A program made the translations under genes and the position numbers. The notes under the pieces are model-generated. The model was not told where the DNA came from. It saw nothing but the letters and a program-made list of their open reading frames with translations, and searched no databases. Of a stretch of 51,561 nt of DNA, positions 11,016 through 35,861 are shown piece after piece. Numbering within the stretch: position 1 is the first letter of the stretch; each line of letters opens with the position of its first letter. The stretch comes from a bacterium (GTDB lineage Bacteria > Patescibacteriota > Saccharimonadia > CAILAD01 > GCA-016700035), in assembly GCA_020854115.1 (NCBI GenBank), contig JADZGC010000006.1, forward strand, positions 1 through 51,561. Direction: 5' to 3'.

Positions 11016-11912
11016 TTATGACGACCGAGCGATCCACTGTCCCCCGCCCATTGCAACCACTTCGCCCGTCAGCTCAAGTAAGCTCAAGATCTCGAGTATC
11101 TGCTGAACTGGTCGCTGAGCCTTCACCGCAAGGCTTTCAGCCGACTGCGCCCGCTCGGCAAGAGCTGATAATAATGTGTGCTCAAGGGTACCGACGGCGT
11201 ACCTTTGCGTAACTTGGGTTTTCTCTTGTGGTCGCATAAGACCAAGTGCCGTCCATATGTCAGCAGCACCCAGGATTGGCACCGCCCCAGCCCGAATAAG
11301 ATTGTTTGGTCCTTCAGACCGTGGGTTTGTGATAGCGCCCGGCACCGCCATGACAATTCGATTTTCATCAAGCGCCAGGTGTGCTGTGATAAGCGAACCG
11401 GATCGCGCATCTGCTTCAGTGACCAATACCCCTCGACTTAAGCCGGCAATAATGCGATTACGAGCCGGGAAATGATGCTTCAAAGGCGGTGTACCATCAC
11501 TGTATTCCGACACGATTGCCCCACCTGATTGGATGATTTGCTCAGCCAAACGACGATTTGCCGCTGGATAGCACACATCAAGACCACAACCCAAGACCGC
11601 CACTGTCTTCCCGCCCGCCGCTACTGCTGCACGATGTGCTATAGTGTCGATACCATACGCTAGCCCACTGACGATCGTGATACCCGACTGAGCCAACTCA
11701 AAAGCCAAACGGTACGTCACCTCCTCGCCGTACTGTGTAGGCCGGCGCGTCCCAACGATGGCCACCGCTGGCCCATCAGGCATCTCGCCTCGGACATACA
11801 GACTACTTGGCGCGTCATGAATCTCACGGAGGTCCCCCGTAAATTTATTGCGCTTAAGCATTGTATATTGTGTAGTTGTTATGCTTGTATCATCTTGTTT
11901 ATTTCTATACAC
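11016..11912 (-). CDS. dprA: DNA processing protein DprA
   Basis: Binds incoming single-stranded DNA and loads RecA during natural transformation. The Rossmann-like DprA core is clear: VAIVGTRRPTQYG, VSGLAYGIDTIAHRAA, TVAVLGCGLDVCYP, HHFPARNRIIAGLSRGVLVTEA and SGSLITAHLALDENRIVMAVPG. The last ~65 residues form the usual winged-helix domain. At 298 residues it lacks an N-terminal SAM domain, as in many small-genome homologues. The start is GTG at 11912, supported by AAGGAG 10 bases upstream. A later ATG at 11861 would remove a poorly conserved 17-residue head. Prepilin genes elsewhere in the window fit a DNA-uptake ability. Confidence 0.95.
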   Translation of the reverse strand: MYRNKQDDTSITTTQYTMLKRNKFTGDLREIHDAPSSLYVRGEMPDGPAVAIVGTRRPTQYGEEVTYRLAFELAQSGITIVSGLAYGIDTIAHRAAVAAGGKTVAVLGCGLDVCYPAANRRLAEQIIQSGGAIVSEYSDGTPPLKHHFPARNRIIAGLSRGVLVTEADARSGSLITAHLALDENRIVMAVPGAITNPRSEGPNNLIRAGAVPILGAADIWTALGLMRPQEKTQVTQRYAVGTLEHTLLSALAERAQSAESLAVKAQRPVQQILEILSLLELTGEVVAMGGGQWIARSS

Positions 11913-11935
11913 TCAATAATCTCCTTGAAAATGTA

Positions 11936-11964
11936 TTGACATATAAGCTCAACTATGTTAGTAT
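11936..11964 (+). promoter_or_regulatory. Strong plus-strand promoter for a putative structured RNA
   Basis: TTGACA at 11936-11941, 17-base spacer, TAGTAT at 11959-11964 with TG one base before it (extended -10). It faces away from dprA, and no protein gene lies downstream on this strand. The same layout, ending in TGTTAGTATAC, recurs on the minus strand at 34631-34659. Confidence 0.7.
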
Positions 11965-11970
11965 ACATCG

Positions 11971-12222
11971 CGTACCTAAAAACTTTTTGAAAACCCGCTC
12001 TCTTCTTCAGGTAATACCCTGAAAGGGAGCGATCTGCTACTGCGGGGCCATATCCTAAAACTCACCCTCCTTTAGGTATACCGCAATAGCAGATCGCTCC
12101 CTTTCATGACCACGATCGTATAGAATACTTATTGACGATCGAAAAACCCCTCATACGGTGGCTTGGAAGGGATTAATGAAAAGTCCACATCGGTTCCGAC
12201 TGGTGTGGTCTTTTCATTTATA
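11971..12222 (+). ncRNA. Putative structured non-coding RNA (unknown family)
   Basis: A non-coding stretch with its own promoter and a terminator-like end. Elements in order: hairpin TTCAGG/CCTGAA (12006-12011, 12018-12023); a long hairpin in which 12021-12039 pairs perfectly over 19 bases with the segment ending at 12105, then a C/A mismatch, five more pairs (TGCGG/CCGCA), and an apical CCTAAA/TTTAGG stem with an 11-base loop; CGATCGT/ACGATCG (12113-12119, 12135-12141); and a terminal hairpin at about 12174-12218. The first two share bases 12021-12023, so they could be alternative folds. I see no tmRNA, RNase P RNA or SRP RNA signature. 6S RNA is possible from the rod-like shape and strong promoter, but unproven. 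Confidence 0.5.
12174..12222 (+). terminator. Terminator hairpin ending the putative RNA (possibly bidirectional)
   Basis: AATGAAAAG and CTTTTCATT pair over 9 bases. After a T/T mismatch, CCACA pairs with TGTGG. The 3' arm itself supplies the T-run (TCTTTTCATTTAT). The symmetrical arms could stop transcription on either strand. Confidence 0.6.
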
Positions 12223-12281
12223 CCGATATATTGAGTCTAGTAGAAATACGAACAAAAAGCGAGCATGAGGGGTATAAAGAC

Positions 12282-12310
12282 AGCTGAGGACATGACTATC
12301 ATCCTCAGCT
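12282..12310 (-). terminator. Terminator-like hairpin at the end of the scpA-to-glycosyltransferase operon
   Basis: AGCTGAGGA/TCCTCAGCT, a 9-base perfect stem with an 11-base loop, includes the stop codon of the glycosyltransferase gene. On the minus strand it is followed by GTCTTTAT, a weak T-rich tail. Confidence 0.5.
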
Positions 12311-12979
12311 AAGCCAGGGCTTGAAGCGCACCGGCAAGATGAACCGAGCGGTTCCAAGCAGCCATTCCTTGAAGACTGCGCGCTTGGCTATGTAGGCAGA
12401 TCGACGTGTCGGGTACTTATCGAGCTTATCAATAGATCTCACGCCGCGCATCAAGACTTTTGCGATTTGCCGCTTATTACGCAGTAGGCTCCAGCGACAA
12501 ATGGCATTCAGCGCCGCCTCTAAGGCCCAGCCTTGGTAATCAATCTCGCACACCTCCCAAAGCAAAGAGGCTCGAAAAGCACGTTCGCCAGAGAGACCGA
12601 CATGCCAGCGCCAGTGGAGCCGCTTGAACGTTGTGTCGCAAACCCCAGCTGCTTGTACATACCCTCCATGAACTACAGGGGCAAGCAAGGCTACGATGTG
12701 CTCCTCGCACAAACCCACCAGATCTGCGTCGAGCAGCAGAACTACGTCGTCACTTGCAACTCGCTGCGCCATTACGTATGTAATGGCATTTCCCTTGCCG
12801 CGCTCGGGGCAATCAATCACTTCAACCCCAAAGCACTCAGCACGCTCGCGCGTGTCGTCAGTAGAGCCGTTATTTGCAACCAGTACGAGATCGATCATGG
12901 TACAGCGCGTAGCAACTGCCAATACTCGCTCAATGCGTCCTGCCTCGTTGAAGGCAGGGATAATACAAATGGTACGCAC
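12305..12979 (-). CDS. Family 2 glycosyltransferase
   Basis: A 224-residue GT-A fold enzyme transferring sugar from an activated nucleotide donor. The start IIPAFNEAGRIERVL, the NNGSTDDT nucleotide-binding motif and the VVLLLDADLVGL metal-binding DxD are all GT2 features. No C-terminal membrane helices are present, so it resembles the short dolichol-phosphate-mannose-synthase-like or cytosolic GT2 proteins. The acceptor is unknown. The start is GTG, backed by a near-perfect AAAGGAGG four bases upstream. It is the last gene of the scp/dacA/der/pth run and may act in envelope glycan synthesis. Confidence 0.85.
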   Translation of the reverse strand: MRTICIIPAFNEAGRIERVLAVATRCTMIDLVLVANNGSTDDTRERAECFGVEVIDCPERGKGNAITYVMAQRVASDDVVLLLDADLVGLCEEHIVALLAPVVHGGYVQAAGVCDTTFKRLHWRWHVGLSGERAFRASLLWEVCEIDYQGWALEAALNAICRWSLLRNKRQIAKVLMRGVRSIDKLDKYPTRRSAYIAKRAVFKEWLLGTARFILPVRFKPWLS

Positions 12980-13063: not shown

Positions 13064-13600
13064 TTACGCCGTCATGGCAATATGATACTGGCCCCGCAAT
13101 TCCTTGATCGCCCGACCAATAATCGCCTTCATTTGAGCTCGTTCTTCGTGCGAGAACCTGCCGAGTACAAACTCCTGTAGATCAACATGGCGCAAGAGAT
13201 CGTTGCCGATGCCGATTCGCAGTCGATTCACCTGATGACTATAATCTTTTGCGACCGAGCGCAGACCATTATGATGCGCTCCTGTCACAATCCCCCGTCG
13301 AAATCGCATATCACCAAAGTCTAGATCGCGATCATCAACCACGATACACACCTGTTCTGGGTCTACCTTATAATAATCAGCCACCGCTCGGACAGCCCGT
13401 CCGGAGTCATTCATATAAGTCTGTGGCTTTACGAGCAAGGTATCAGAAATGGCCGCAACCTGTGCACACCAAGCTGGCTTATCTTGCCAGGCAACGTGGG
13501 CTTGTTCAGCCAGCTCGTCGACGACCGCAAACCCGACATTATGACGCATACCGTCATATTGTCGACCCGGATTACCTAATCCTACAATAATCTGCTTCAT
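13064..13600 (-). CDS. pth: Peptidyl-tRNA hydrolase
   Basis: Recycles peptidyl-tRNA released by stalled ribosomes. At 178 residues it carries IIVGLGNPGRQYDGMRHNVGF with the catalytic His, then KPQTYMNDSGRAV, and later GAHHNGLRSV (family usual GGHNGLRS). The VVDDRDLDFG segment, with DDRD for the common DDLD, is in the right place. The der stop codon is directly adjacent (TAA-ATG), with AAGGGA just upstream as Shine-Dalgarno, so translation is probably coupled to der. Confidence 0.96.
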   Translation of the reverse strand: MKQIIVGLGNPGRQYDGMRHNVGFAVVDELAEQAHVAWQDKPAWCAQVAAISDTLLVKPQTYMNDSGRAVRAVADYYKVDPEQVCIVVDDRDLDFGDMRFRRGIVTGAHHNGLRSVAKDYSHQVNRLRIGIGNDLLRHVDLQEFVLGRFSHEERAQMKAIIGRAIKELRGQYHIAMTA

Positions 13601-28659: not shown

Positions 28660-29099
28660 GAGAGATGAGCGAAGTGGCAAAAATTATTAGTATAATGACG
28701 CTTCCGAGGCTTGAGGCCCCATACTGCTAGTATGAGACCGAATTTTGAACTTTCATTTAAGAACCATATGAATATACCAGGTTTTACTAGATATTTCTAG
28801 ACTTTACCCACCCATTTGTAGACCGTATGATAGGAGTTAAGCTTGGGGTGAGAGAAAGACATGGGGGTTGACGCAGAACACTGTACATTCGTATAATGTT
28901 CGCAGTAGTGATGTGTGCATCGAGTGGCACTGGCAGACAAGAAAAAGGTAGGCCTAGGGGCTTTACAGTCAGCCACTACGCTATATATAGTGTTATTAGC
29001 GAATTATTAAACGCTACATACACACAAAAATTCTTACGGGAGCAGTCTGTGAGGGGCTGAATACCGAATACTGTTCGTATAAATATGAGGAGGGTGACG
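28660..29099. promoter_or_regulatory. Regulatory region between tRNA-Glu and nrdA
   Basis: No gene. It holds the tRNA promoter side, then a strong plus-strand promoter TTGACG (28868-28873), 18-base spacer, TATAAT (28892-28897). Further on, the two NrdR-like boxes overlap a second, weaker promoter (TTTACA near 28962, TATAGT at about 28986). The nrdA start has AGGAGG six bases before ATG 29100. Two promoters, one under NrdR-type control, is the simplest reading. Confidence 0.6.
28978..29026 (+). promoter_or_regulatory. Pair of NrdR-box-like sites upstream of nrdAB
   Basis: ACGCTATATATAGTGT (28978-28993) closely fits the NrdR box consensus acaCwAtATaTwGtgt. ACGCTACATACACACA (29011-29026) is a weaker copy sharing the left half. 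The start-to-start distance is 33 bases, about three helical turns, as in known NrdR box pairs. Box 1 overlaps a putative -10. NrdR itself is not in the window. Confidence 0.65.
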
Positions 29100-32009
29100 A
29101 TGCCATTTGAGCAAATAAAAAAGCGTAATGGGTCTGTTGTACCATTTGATAAGCAACGTATCGCCGATGCCATTCTGCGCGCTAGCCTATCTGTAGACGG
29201 CGAGATCGATGTCGAGCAGACACTTGCCCTAGCAGACACGGTAACCGAAAACCTGGCGGCAATTTTTGATGATCGTATGCCCGATGTCGAGACGATTCAG
29301 GATCTCGTCGAGCGCGAGCTGATGCGTCAGAGCTTCTTTCAGACCGCTCGTAGTTACATCCTCTATCGTGAAGCACACAAGCACCAACGAGAGGTAAGTC
29401 AGTCAGTGCAGGCTGCCAAGCTCGAGAAGTCTGCGCTTAAAGTTGCGCAGAAAGATGGCTCGACAGAAAACTTCAATGCCGAGAAGCTTCGCAAGACTAT
29501 CACCCGTTTCACCGATGGACTCAACGTCGATATCGACGACATCACCGAAGCCGTGAAGACCAACCTGTATGACGGCATCACTGTCGAAGAGCTGTTTGAC
29601 GCCATTGTGATGGTTGCGCGTAGCTTCATCGAGCGTGACACCGACTACACCAAACTAGCGGCACGTCTTCTCCTTCACAAGCTCCATCAGCATGTACTCG
29701 GCGAATCCGATGCTGACAAGATCCCGGCTGCCTACCGCAAAATGTTTGTCAAAAACATGAAGCGCGCTGTCAAAGAAAATCGCCTCCAGAAAGAAGTGCT
29801 CGACTTCGATCTCGAAACGCTTGCTGAGTATATGGATCTTGAGCGCGATCTACTCTTTGACTTCATGGGGCTACAAGTCCTCTATGACCGATATTTCTTG
29901 CGTGCAGCTGGAAGCGAGGACATCATCCTCGAGACACCTCAAGCCTTCTGGATGCGTGTCGCTATTGGAATGAGCCTCAACGAAGGTAGGGACAAGAACG
30001 AATGGGCCAAGAAATTCTATGACGTCATGTCCACCCATCGATATGTACCTTCGACCCCTACCCTCTTCCACTCAGGCACCACCTACCCACAACTCTCGTC
30101 GTGTTACCTCAATACCGTACAGGATGACCTCAACGACATCTTTAAGACCTTCTCCGACAATGCTCAGTTGTCGAAATACTCTGGCGGTATTGGCACCGAC
30201 TGGACAAACATCCGTGCAACTGGCGCACTTATTAAAACTACAAATGTAAGCTCTCAGGGCGTTATCCCATTTCTCAAGATCTCTAACGATGTGACTGTCG
30301 CAATCAATCGCTCGGGCAAACGTCGCGGCGCCACCTGCGCTTACCTCGAAACCTGGCATCTTGATATCGAGGAATTTCTCGAGCTTCGTAAGAACACCGG
30401 CGACGAGCGTCGACGTACCCATGACATGGATACTGCAAACTGGATCCCCGATCTCTTCATGAAACGCGTACACGAAGGTGGCATGTGGACACTCTTCTCG
30501 CCAGATGAAGTACCGGATCTCCACCATATCTACGGTAAGAAGTTTGAAGAAGCTTACGAGCAATATGAGCGCATGGCCGACGAAGGTAAAGTCGAGGTAT
30601 TCAAGCGAATCCCCGCAACTGATCTGTGGCGCAAGATGCTTACCATGCTCTTCGAGACCGGTCACCCATGGATCACATTCAAGGACCCATCCAATGTACG
30701 CTCCCCACAAGACCACGTCGGTGTCGTACACAACTCGAACCTCTGCACAGAAATAACGCTCAACAACTCAAGCGACGAGACGGCCGTTTGTAATCTCGGC
30801 TCAGTTAACCTCGGCCTGCATATCAAGGGCGAAGTCCTAGATCACGACAAAATCAAAGAAACTGTTACCTTAGCGATGCGCATGCTCGATAATGTCGTAG
30901 ACCTCAACTTCTACCCAACCAAAGAGACCAAGAACAGCAACATGAAGCACCGTCCCGTTGGGCTTGGTATCATGGGGTTCCAGGACGCACTCTACCGATT
31001 CGACATCGATTTCGCATCCGAAGCAGCCGTTGAATTTGCAGACATCTCGATGGAGCTTGTATCATACTACGCGATTTCTGCCTCCTCTGATCTTGCCGCA
31101 GAACGTGGCGCCTACGAAAGCTTCAAGGGGAGCAAGTGGGATCGTGGTATCTTCCCTGTTGACACACTCGACCTACTCGAAGAAGAGCGCGGTCAGGAGA
31201 TCGATGTCTCACGTGTCGGACGCCTCAACTGGGCACCGATCAAGGAGAAGGTTAAAAAGCAAGGGATGCGCAATTCCAACACCATGGCGATTGCTCCAAC
31301 CGCAACCATCTCAAATATCGTCGGCTGCTACCCATGTATCGAGCCAATCTTCAAGAACCTCTATGTCAAGGCCAATATGTCCGGCGACTTCACTGTCATT
31401 AACCCCTACCTTGTCGAGGACCTCAAAGCTCTTGATCTCTGGAACGATGAGATGATCAAGAAGCTCAAATTCTACGATGGCTCAGTGCAGCAAATCTCAG
31501 AGATCCCAGTTAACCTCCGTGATAAGTACAAGGAAGTATTTGAGATTCCAGTAGAGTGGCTTATTCGCACCGCCGCCTATCGCGGTAAGTGGATCGATCA
31601 AAGTCAGTCACTCAATATCTTCTTGCGGGGCACCAGCGGCAAGATGCTCAACGATGCCTACACGCTAGCCTGGAAAATGGGGCTTAAGACAACCTACTAC
31701 CTACGCTCGCTCGCAGCTAGTCAGGTCGAGAAGTCTACTATCAATACGTCTGAGTTCGGAGACACTCACAATCGTGACTTCAGCCCAAGCTCGCCAACCG
31801 AGACCATGAGTACTACAGCTATCATCAAAACAACCAGCGACAACGCTGCCGCAACCGCCATGGTGACAACAGCTACGAATGTTGCCACCGCAGTAACATC
31901 CGACATACCTACTTCCGGCATCATGTCGGATGCCTTGTTGGTAGCAAGTAACCAGGAAGCGCTCAAAGTCTGCTCGATTCTCGACCCAGACTGCGAAGCC
32001 TGCCAGTAA
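29100..32009 (+). CDS. nrdA: Ribonucleoside-diphosphate reductase class I, alpha subunit
   Basis: Reduces NDPs to dNDPs with the beta subunit encoded next. 969 residues. Two ATP-cone regulatory domains lie in tandem (about 1-95, starting FEQIKKRNGSVVPFDKQR, and about 105-200, QKDGSTENFNAEKLRKTI). The catalytic barrel has SSCYLN, NSNLCTEITL and AVCNLGSVNLG (the active-site Cys set), APTATISNIVGCYPCIEP and KTTYYLRS. After a ~60-residue Thr/Ala-rich linker the tail ends VCSILDPDCEACQ, with the shuttle cysteines. ATG 29100 was chosen over 29085 because AGGAGG sits six bases before it. Ten bases separate it from nrdB. Confidence 0.96.
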   Translation: MPFEQIKKRNGSVVPFDKQRIADAILRASLSVDGEIDVEQTLALADTVTENLAAIFDDRMPDVETIQDLVERELMRQSFFQTARSYILYREAHKHQREVSQSVQAAKLEKSALKVAQKDGSTENFNAEKLRKTITRFTDGLNVDIDDITEAVKTNLYDGITVEELFDAIVMVARSFIERDTDYTKLAARLLLHKLHQHVLGESDADKIPAAYRKMFVKNMKRAVKENRLQKEVLDFDLETLAEYMDLERDLLFDFMGLQVLYDRYFLRAAGSEDIILETPQAFWMRVAIGMSLNEGRDKNEWAKKFYDVMSTHRYVPSTPTLFHSGTTYPQLSSCYLNTVQDDLNDIFKTFSDNAQLSKYSGGIGTDWTNIRATGALIKTTNVSSQGVIPFLKISNDVTVAINRSGKRRGATCAYLETWHLDIEEFLELRKNTGDERRRTHDMDTANWIPDLFMKRVHEGGMWTLFSPDEVPDLHHIYGKKFEEAYEQYERMADEGKVEVFKRIPATDLWRKMLTMLFETGHPWITFKDPSNVRSPQDHVGVVHNSNLCTEITLNNSSDETAVCNLGSVNLGLHIKGEVLDHDKIKETVTLAMRMLDNVVDLNFYPTKETKNSNMKHRPVGLGIMGFQDALYRFDIDFASEAAVEFADISMELVSYYAISASSDLAAERGAYESFKGSKWDRGIFPVDTLDLLEEERGQEIDVSRVGRLNWAPIKEKVKKQGMRNSNTMAIAPTATISNIVGCYPCIEPIFKNLYVKANMSGDFTVINPYLVEDLKALDLWNDEMIKKLKFYDGSVQQISEIPVNLRDKYKEVFEIPVEWLIRTAAYRGKWIDQSQSLNIFLRGTSGKMLNDAYTLAWKMGLKTTYYLRSLAASQVEKSTINTSEFGDTHNRDFSPSSPTETMSTTAIIKTTSDNAAATAMVTTATNVATAVTSDIPTSGIMSDALLVASNQEALKVCSILDPDCEACQ

Positions 32010-34630: not shown

Positions 34631-34659
34631 ATACTAACAAATTTTGTACTATTTGTCAA
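34631..34659 (-). promoter_or_regulatory. Promoter of the LPXTG peptide gene
   Basis: On the minus strand TTGACA (34659-34654), 17-base spacer, TAGTAT (34636-34631) with TG extension. The spacer holds the near-palindrome ACAAAATTTGT. It resembles the GT2 operon promoter at 38456-38484 closely and lies back-to-back with the GH6 promoter. Confidence 0.75.
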
Positions 34660-34667
34660 CTATTTTC

Positions 34668-34697
34668 TTGACAGATTATTATCACCTGCCATACACT
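34668..34697 (+). promoter_or_regulatory. Promoter of the GH6 gene
   Basis: TTGACA (34668-34673), 18-base spacer, TACACT (34692-34697). The spacer contains TATTATCACCT (34677-34687), also found at the -10 of the GT2/deacetylase promoter. Confidence 0.55.
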
Positions 34698-34727
34698 AGA
34701 AAGCACAACTATTTTAGGGGGGTGGAG

Positions 34728-35861
34728 ATGCAATACAGCCGTTACAAATTACCTGTTATTACACTAACTGCTATATTTGTCTATATATCTGGAGCGTTAC
34801 TGGCTCCTTTTTCTATTCCCGCCCAGCTCGTATCGAGGATTAGCGCCAGGCCAGATAACAACACCCCTCAGCAAAATCAACCCCGGGCAGATCAGGCTAC
34901 CCCGCCACTTTCCCCACAGGCATCTTCCTCTGCTAGCCCCACGGCTTCTTCCACTGCAGCCCAAGCTTCAGGCCTACCAAAATCTGGCAATCCATTCATA
35001 GGGGAAAAACTGTACGTCAGCCCGTACAGTCCAGCTGCACGACAGCGGCAAGCCTGGGCTGGCTCTAGGCCAAGCGATGCAGCGCTTATGAACAAAATAG
35101 CAAGCAACCCTGTCGCGATCTGGCTCGGCGACTGGACGACGAACCCAAATGGCACCACGCGCTCGTTCATTAATGAAATACGCTCCGGAGGTGCCCTGCC
35201 CGTCTTTGTGTTATACAACATCCCAATCAGAGATTGCGGCAGCTATTCTGCCGGTGGTGCCTCCTCGGCGCAATCATATCAACAGTGGATACACGATATT
35301 CAAGCCGCCAGCGCTAATACAAAATCGATCTTTCTCCTTGAGCCAGATGCTCTGGCAGGGTGGGATTGCCTATCACCAGCCCAAAAAACAGAGCGAATCA
35401 ATCTCTTACGATATGCCGTAGATACCCTCACAAGCAGCCCCAATCACTACGTGTACCTGGATGCAGGAAATGCCCGATGGCACACGGCAGCCGAAGTAGC
35501 CAATCGCTTAAAACAGGTCGGCACGCAACGACTAAGCGGCATCAGCATCAACATTTCCAACTTCCTCACTACTGAAGAAAGTCGCTCGTACGGACAACAA
35601 ATCAGTCAGCTCAGTGGTGGGCTTGGTTTTGTCATCGATACGAGCCGCAATGGTCGTGGTCCTACCGCCGACCTAGACTGGTGCAATCCGCCCGACCGCG
35701 GACTCGGTGAAACACCAAAGGCCATGACCACAGACAGCCTCCATGCTCTCTTGTGGATCAAATACCCCGGAGAGTCAGATGGGTCGTGCAAAGGTGCTCC
35801 TACCGCTGGTGAGTGGTGGCCCGAATATGCTCTTGGGCTGGCAGCTCGAGCGAGCTTCTAA
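34728..35861 (+). CDS. Secreted glycoside hydrolase family 6 (endoglucanase/cellobiohydrolase type)
   Basis: 377 residues from ATG 34728, which AGGGGG six bases upstream supports over the earlier ATG. Residues 8-30 are a signal/anchor helix, and 40-85 a Ser/Ala/Pro/Thr linker. The GH6 domain shows IPIRDCGSYSAGG (Asp169), LLEPDALAGWDC (Asp207, the likely acid), FVIDTSRNG, DWCNPPDRGLG and LLWIKYPGESDGSC (Asp351, the family's putative base). It would cut beta-1,4-glucan by inversion outside the cell. It converges on the NodB deacetylase and GT2 synthase genes, so it may edit or release a polymer made by them instead of feeding on external cellulose. Confidence 0.9.
   Translation: MQYSRYKLPVITLTAIFVYISGALLAPFSIPAQLVSRISARPDNNTPQQNQPRADQATPPLSPQASSSASPTASSTAAQASGLPKSGNPFIGEKLYVSPYSPAARQRQAWAGSRPSDAALMNKIASNPVAIWLGDWTTNPNGTTRSFINEIRSGGALPVFVLYNIPIRDCGSYSAGGASSAQSYQQWIHDIQAASANTKSIFLLEPDALAGWDCLSPAQKTERINLLRYAVDTLTSSPNHYVYLDAGNARWHTAAEVANRLKQVGTQRLSGISINISNFLTTEESRSYGQQISQLSGGLGFVIDTSRNGRGPTADLDWCNPPDRGLGETPKAMTTDSLHALLWIKYPGESDGSCKGAPTAGEWWPEYALGLAARASF

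Follow-up and report, generated by a model that had tools for sequence, protein, structure and literature searches.

The window (the whole stretch of DNA that was analysed, 51,561 nucleotides) carries an RNA of about 250 nt on its plus strand, between dprA and pth. The features of the locus and the candidate target of the RNA are as follows.

11016..11912, minus strand: dprA, the divergent neighbour, a constant marker in the synteny comparison
11936..11964, plus strand: promoter TTGACA-17-TAGTAT with an extended -10 element (TG), 10 of 12 consensus positions
11971..12019, plus strand: 5' leader, variable in the alignment, with the non-conserved hairpin half TTCAGG
12021..12039, plus strand: 5' arm of P1, 19 nt, GAAAGGGAGCGATCTGCTA, covarying pairs
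12054..12076, plus strand: apical hairpin CCTAAA[ACTCACCCTCC]TTTAGG, with the near-invariant loop core ACCCTCC at 12064-12070
12087..12105, plus strand: 3' arm of P1, TAGCAGATCGCTCCCTTTC, covarying pairs
12099..12111, plus strand: 5' strand of helix B, CCCTTTCATGACC, overlapping the 3' arm of P1
12113..12141, plus strand: P2 hairpin CGATCG...CGATCG, 98% of cells paired, covarying
12157..12171, plus strand: G-rich strand GGTGGC, able to pair with the loop, and the 3' strand of helix B, TTGGAAGGG
12175..12220, plus strand: intrinsic terminator hairpin, present also in the homologues inspected
13064..13600, minus strand: pth, in the synteny comparison the usual neighbour on the far side of the RNA, then der
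29089..29095, plus strand: GGAGGGT within the nrdA ribosome-binding site (nrdA start codon at 29100), a candidate site for pairing with the loop

An earlier note, made from the sequence alone, had proposed an unannotated structured RNA at this position, and this claim held. The elements it had named, i.e. the TTGACA-17-TAGTAT extended promoter at 11936-11964, about 250 bases without an ORF, a perfect 19-base stem with 5 and 6 further pairs (12021-12105), and a terminator-type hairpin, held as well. There was no ORF of at least 50 amino acids on the plus strand in 11971-12230, and no conserved small ORF was found among seven transcripts of the RNA family. From the position of the promoter, transcription is predicted to start at approximately 11971. 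Shuffled sequence contained a mean of 1.4 such promoters, showing that the promoter of the RNA gene is not rare on its own; it is kept in nearly all relatives, and a TTGAC promoter heads 51 of the 53 homologues. In other orders (L079, L080, L082, L098-L102), the motif ATTTGCATAA recurs at least ~10 nt upstream of the -35 box; it may be a regulator site or belong to the dprA promoter. In the window, a family 2 glycosyltransferase gene (12305-12979) is located between the RNA and pth, unlike most same-order relatives, where pth lies within ~300 bp after the RNA. Elsewhere in the window, at 34644-35861, this bacterium with an ultrasmall genome encodes a protein of glycosyl hydrolase family 6 (PF01341), a cellulase-type family; the best start of the gene is preceded by the G-rich leader TTAGGGGGGTGGAG.

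The region 11971-12220 folded at -96.9 kcal/mol (z -8.8), and none of 200 shuffles was as good. The perfect 19-bp stem P1 is extended by TGCGG/CCGCA and then by the CCTAAA/TTTAGG pairs. When P1, the apical hairpin, helix B, and P2 were analyzed together in 21 sequences, 94.1% of the cells were paired and double-sided changes were seen in 20 of the 34 pairs, above all 500 shuffles; slid controls were paired in 32-49%. Helix B alone (33 distinct strand pairs) was 96% paired, with double changes in 7 of 9 pairs. The strands of helix B were chosen by eye, so that the register leans toward the helix; slid versions dropped to 27-70%. The alignment from the first covariance model was excluded, because opposite-strand palindrome matches were mixed in. 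A lack of compensatory base changes in relatives would have refuted the earlier note; many were found.

The same note had also inferred two alternative folds from a TTCAGG/CCTGAA hairpin (12006-12011/12018-12023) and a CGCTC/GAGCG pairing. These are present in the window but not conserved in the order, and the claim held only in part, as the conserved alternative is a different one. In the window's order, CCCTTT (12099-12104) has two mutually exclusive partners, the 5' AAAGGG (12022-12027, lower P1) and the downstream GGAAGGG strand (helix B), and both pairings of CCCUUU are more than 90% kept. The locus L014 has lost the P1 extension and retained helix B via compensating changes, and orders outside the window's are also without the extension of P1 by AAAGGG, which makes helix B look like the older element. 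At L195, a locus outside the class, inspection showed that CUCUCUAUUAC is able to pair with GUAGUAGUGGG upstream and GUAAUGGAGGG downstream; this competition is of the same kind as the CCCUUU exchange. Long forms of the RNA, found in orders other than the window's, reach ~450 nt. The terminator loop GCCCACCC of most long forms is complementary to GGGUGGGU, located immediately ahead of the helix B 3' strand, and this complementarity likely represents a pseudoknot (GGGUGGG/CCCACCC), clear in the long forms and absent in the window's order.

The RNA is present as a single copy in the 790-kb genome, the sole other match being its own palindrome on the opposite strand, and is not a scattered repeat, another outcome that would have spoken against the earlier note. 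BLAST searches recovered the RNA from 17 genomes of the order, including its own, and the covariance model found it in 17/17. The alignments within the order showed an invariant TCACCCTCCTTT and a 5' leader that varies, with promoter and terminator both retained. The database records bearing the loop pattern belonged to Candidatus Saccharibacteria or Patescibacteria, several of them labelled UBA4664. A second covariance model, built with four more distant matches added, detected the RNA in 28 of the 393 class genomes, the strict filters losing weak matches. These matches fell into families f6, f8, f11, f13, f14, and f16, and weakly into f25.

Synteny extended this distribution. A DprA search of 30 further class genomes gave 21 loci, and the RNA was found upstream of dprA in 20 of them, each with a promoter, a terminator, ACCCUCC or something very similar in a hairpin loop, and a CCCUUUAACC-like strand whose partner farther downstream resembles GGUUGAAGGG. 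The one exception, G070 (L146), may reflect loss or relocation of the RNA; G074 (L144), of the same family, has it. At nearly all model-matched loci, the order was dprA (divergent), RNA, pth, and der, as far as could be seen where a contig end cut the locus before one neighbour. L131 had other genes downstream, and no dprA match was seen at L127 and L132. The RNA does occur at the dprA/pth-der locus of relatives in the order, where the earlier note had suggested looking, and is more widespread than that note had implied. In the wider phylum, an RNA of the same plan was found at L171, L177, L178, L184, and L194, where the gap between dprA and pth exceeds 200 bp, and beside dprA at L195 with another downstream neighbour. 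At wider-phylum loci with pth directly adjoining dprA, or with no pth in the vicinity, no RNA was seen beside dprA. The covariance model scored 32 bits at L178, 25 at L171, and 23 at L195, whereas the assignment of L177, L184, and L194 rests on inspection. The genomes are mostly draft assemblies, and only part of the class genomes were inspected by synteny. Taken together, it is very likely that the locus is a conserved, stand-alone structured RNA gene of Saccharimonadia, with more diverged forms in other Patescibacteria.

The identity of the RNA was examined against known families. A search with Rfam 15 gave no match at the window locus at gathering scores and nothing credible at E values up to 10, and a gathering-score search of 20 homologous loci gave no family match. 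The earlier note had seen no hallmark of tmRNA, RNase P RNA, or SRP RNA, which held; of the two options it had left, a 6S-like RNA or a new class, the latter is supported, since 6S RNA did not match at the window locus even at E 10, nor at the 20 homologous loci at gathering scores. RNase P RNA was rejected because it lies elsewhere in the genome (G000:C4:44856-45246), and tmRNA because matches over the family cut-off lie at G000:C4:56438-56831 and G000:C12:52100-52442. One tmRNA match is usual, and the window's genome thus has two over the cut-off. The likeness to a riboswitch or attenuator, also proposed from the first reading, is not supported, as the RNA is transcribed from a promoter of its own, ends at its own terminator, and has no gene downstream on the same strand, the neighbours being on the opposite one.

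The most constant part of the RNA is the apical loop. Its core, ACCCUCC, was found in 46 of 53 homologues and the anti-Shine-Dalgarno core that it includes, CCUCC, in 52 of 53, in the hairpin loop, while the stems vary. Since ACCCUCC is near-invariant, a fixed pairing partner would be expected. No exact site for the full 12-nt loop complement was found in the genome except on the RNA's own opposite strand, and the 7-nt core was therefore used for the target search. GGAGGGT precedes nrdA-type ribonucleotide reductase genes in all four same-order genomes examined, the leaders otherwise differing. In the leader of what we take, from our own reading of the sequence, to be a CHAP-type hydrolase, GGAGGG was present in 3/3 genomes, as AAAGGAGGGTGA in two and as AAAAGGAGGGG in the window's own. 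Within the order, GGAGG precedes the start codon of only 41 of 452 genes, so strong Shine-Dalgarno sequences are few, and GGAGGGT is the commonest GGAGGNN among them (10/41, or 8 distinct sites of 39, as two lay in overlapping stretches and had been counted twice). In other orders, GGAGGGT was not enriched (1/26) although the loop is identical. The start codons in this survey were picked partly by Shine-Dalgarno strength, and the target evidence consists of a 7-nt seed. GGAGGGT is also located before the start codons of lexA (L228 5816-6464) and pyrG (L220 6801-8487) in the window's genome; pyrG was rejected as a target, as GGAGGGT is absent in two relatives.

GGAGGGU could be merely a favoured Shine-Dalgarno sequence, because a search of ~300 kb of the genome and of the window did not reveal the clade's 16S tail. 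A 16S 3' end of CACCCUCC would mean that the loop directly copies this tail, and would weaken the nrdA argument. We also compared the loop with the adjacent G-rich strand. The two paired better than shuffles in 44 of 49 cases; in f8-type genomes, the pairing was no better than in shuffles. The internal partner varies (GGUGGC, GGGGGC, GGUGAGG, GGGUGGGU), and the loop is constant.

Several known RNAs share features with the dprA-adjacent RNA. Yfr1/Yfr10 of cyanobacteria is a stand-alone RNA, nearly universal in one phylum, with many reported mRNA partners (PMC6778093), and likewise has a fixed, C/U-rich unpaired motif, which in Yfr10 lies in a hairpin loop (PMC6778093). Yfr1 (RF01116) differs in its length of ~60 nt by the Rfam model and in its unrelated synteny and hosts, and it gave no covariance match to the RNA; the only weak match, at L178, lay beyond the RNA and on the opposite strand. 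Neither a helix B nor a comparable pseudoknot is known to us from Yfr1/Yfr10. B11, the 6C sRNA of mycobacteria, acts as a repressor on a leader containing a G tract, and the 6C RNA of M. tuberculosis is cited as binding mRNAs via C-rich loops without RNA chaperones (PMC10470900). The likeness to 6C/B11 lies in the C-rich hairpin loops, which in 6C act on G-rich leaders. However, 6C is actinobacterial and its loops are runs of six or more C, whereas the dprA-adjacent RNA is larger, has the loop ACCCUCC and a helix B domain, and has no Rfam 6C match. Like 6S RNA (RF00013), it is stand-alone and widespread, with a rod-like long stem; unlike 6S RNA, it has no large central bubble, its C-rich hairpin loop is nearly invariant, and helix B closes off a second domain. 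By analogy, it may be likened to OLE and other large structured classes (PMC10898510) as a large, conserved non-coding RNA of complex structure; it differs in its hosts, the lack of an Rfam match, and the absence of a recognised partner protein gene alongside. By the mechanism proposed below, its mode of working would, by analogy, be most like that of Yfr1/Yfr10 and 6C/B11, although it belongs to neither family.

In the proposed mechanism, the ACCCUCC loop would base-pair in trans with GGAGGGU-type ribosome-binding sites, nrdA being the best candidate, and would compete with the 16S anti-Shine-Dalgarno sequence, so that translation of the target is lowered. The G-rich strand beside helix B could mask the loop, and the state of the RNA may, in the window's order, be set by which of its two partners CCCUUU pairs with. 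We favour such a trans-acting anti-Shine-Dalgarno regulatory RNA with a masked state because of the near-invariant loop, the nrdA and CHAP leaders, and the pairing with the G-rich strand, but only tentatively and with the balance tipped slightly against it, as it is inferred from sequence and no transcript or target has been shown. It also speaks against this mechanism that the long forms, with ~450 nt and a pseudoknot, exceed the needs of a simple antisense RNA. A bolder reading, which we consider unlikely as a whole, is that of an ancestral Patescibacteria RNA for broad translation control, with a loop mimicking the 16S anti-Shine-Dalgarno sequence and an internal masking switch, which might control how cells pass from the host-attached to the swarmer state and back.

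The main rival, which we rate only slightly below the trans-acting mechanism, is a housekeeping ribonucleoprotein RNA, a scaffold or a ribosome- or polymerase-binding RNA like 6S or OLE. Its C-rich loop would then serve for tertiary docking or protein binding instead of acting as an antisense seed. In line with this, the gene is present once per genome, keeps its synteny, and has a strong promoter, the RNA reaches ~450 nt, the long forms have a pseudoknot, and the loop is complementary to the RNA's own G-rich strand. Against it, the internal partner of the loop varies and the loop does not, the pairing in f8-type genomes is at shuffle level, and no protein gene travels with the RNA except dprA, pth, and der, all ordinary. 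It is unlikely that the RNA is a cis element serving only its neighbours, either by separating dprA and pth transcription or by regulating dprA via a shared promoter region. The constant position beside dprA supports this; however, the conserved parts are RNA-level pairs and the loop, not DNA sites, the L195-type locus has a different downstream neighbour, and pth of the window is separated by another gene.

A highly diverged SRP RNA of Patescibacteria is very unlikely. RF00169 (small) and RF01854 (large bacterial) had no match in eight Saccharimonadia genomes (G000, G003, G017, G019, G025, G044, G077, and G087), but this absence is weak, as the same searches missed Bacillus subtilis among the controls. 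Furthermore, the helix-8 core is missing, a loose SRP-like string occurred in 6 of 54 transcripts and was never conserved, and the conserved loop, ACCCUCC, is not of the GNRA type. The eight genomes may have a diverged SRP RNA instead of none. The long, near-perfect palindrome, typical of repeat elements, would suggest a palindromic repeat, mobile or dispersed, or else a hairpin formed by chance, but this is all but excluded by the single copy, the conserved promoter and terminator, the strong covariation, and the class-wide synteny.

We found no earlier description of the RNA in Rfam 15 or the openly licensed literature searched and, judged against these sources only, it was previously uncatalogued. 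It provides a new RNA family for annotation, with dprA-RNA-pth as a synteny handle for locating members. Transformation and transposon sequencing are now feasible in Saccharibacteria, where dprA made no significant fitness contribution (PMC10633639), and an RNA located beside dprA is therefore testable. Patescibacteria are a vast and little-understood group of bacteria, and Saccharimonadia are ultrasmall epibionts. According to a 2024 review, the mechanisms governing cell differentiation in Patescibacteria are completely unknown, and regulation of translation is likely key (PMC11665869). The fixed CCUCC loop suggests that the RNA may control how other genes are translated, in bacteria about whose regulation almost nothing is known; this is an inference, with neither transcript nor target shown. 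A class-wide, covarying, single-copy RNA with an anti-Shine-Dalgarno-like loop is a concrete candidate for such a translation regulator.
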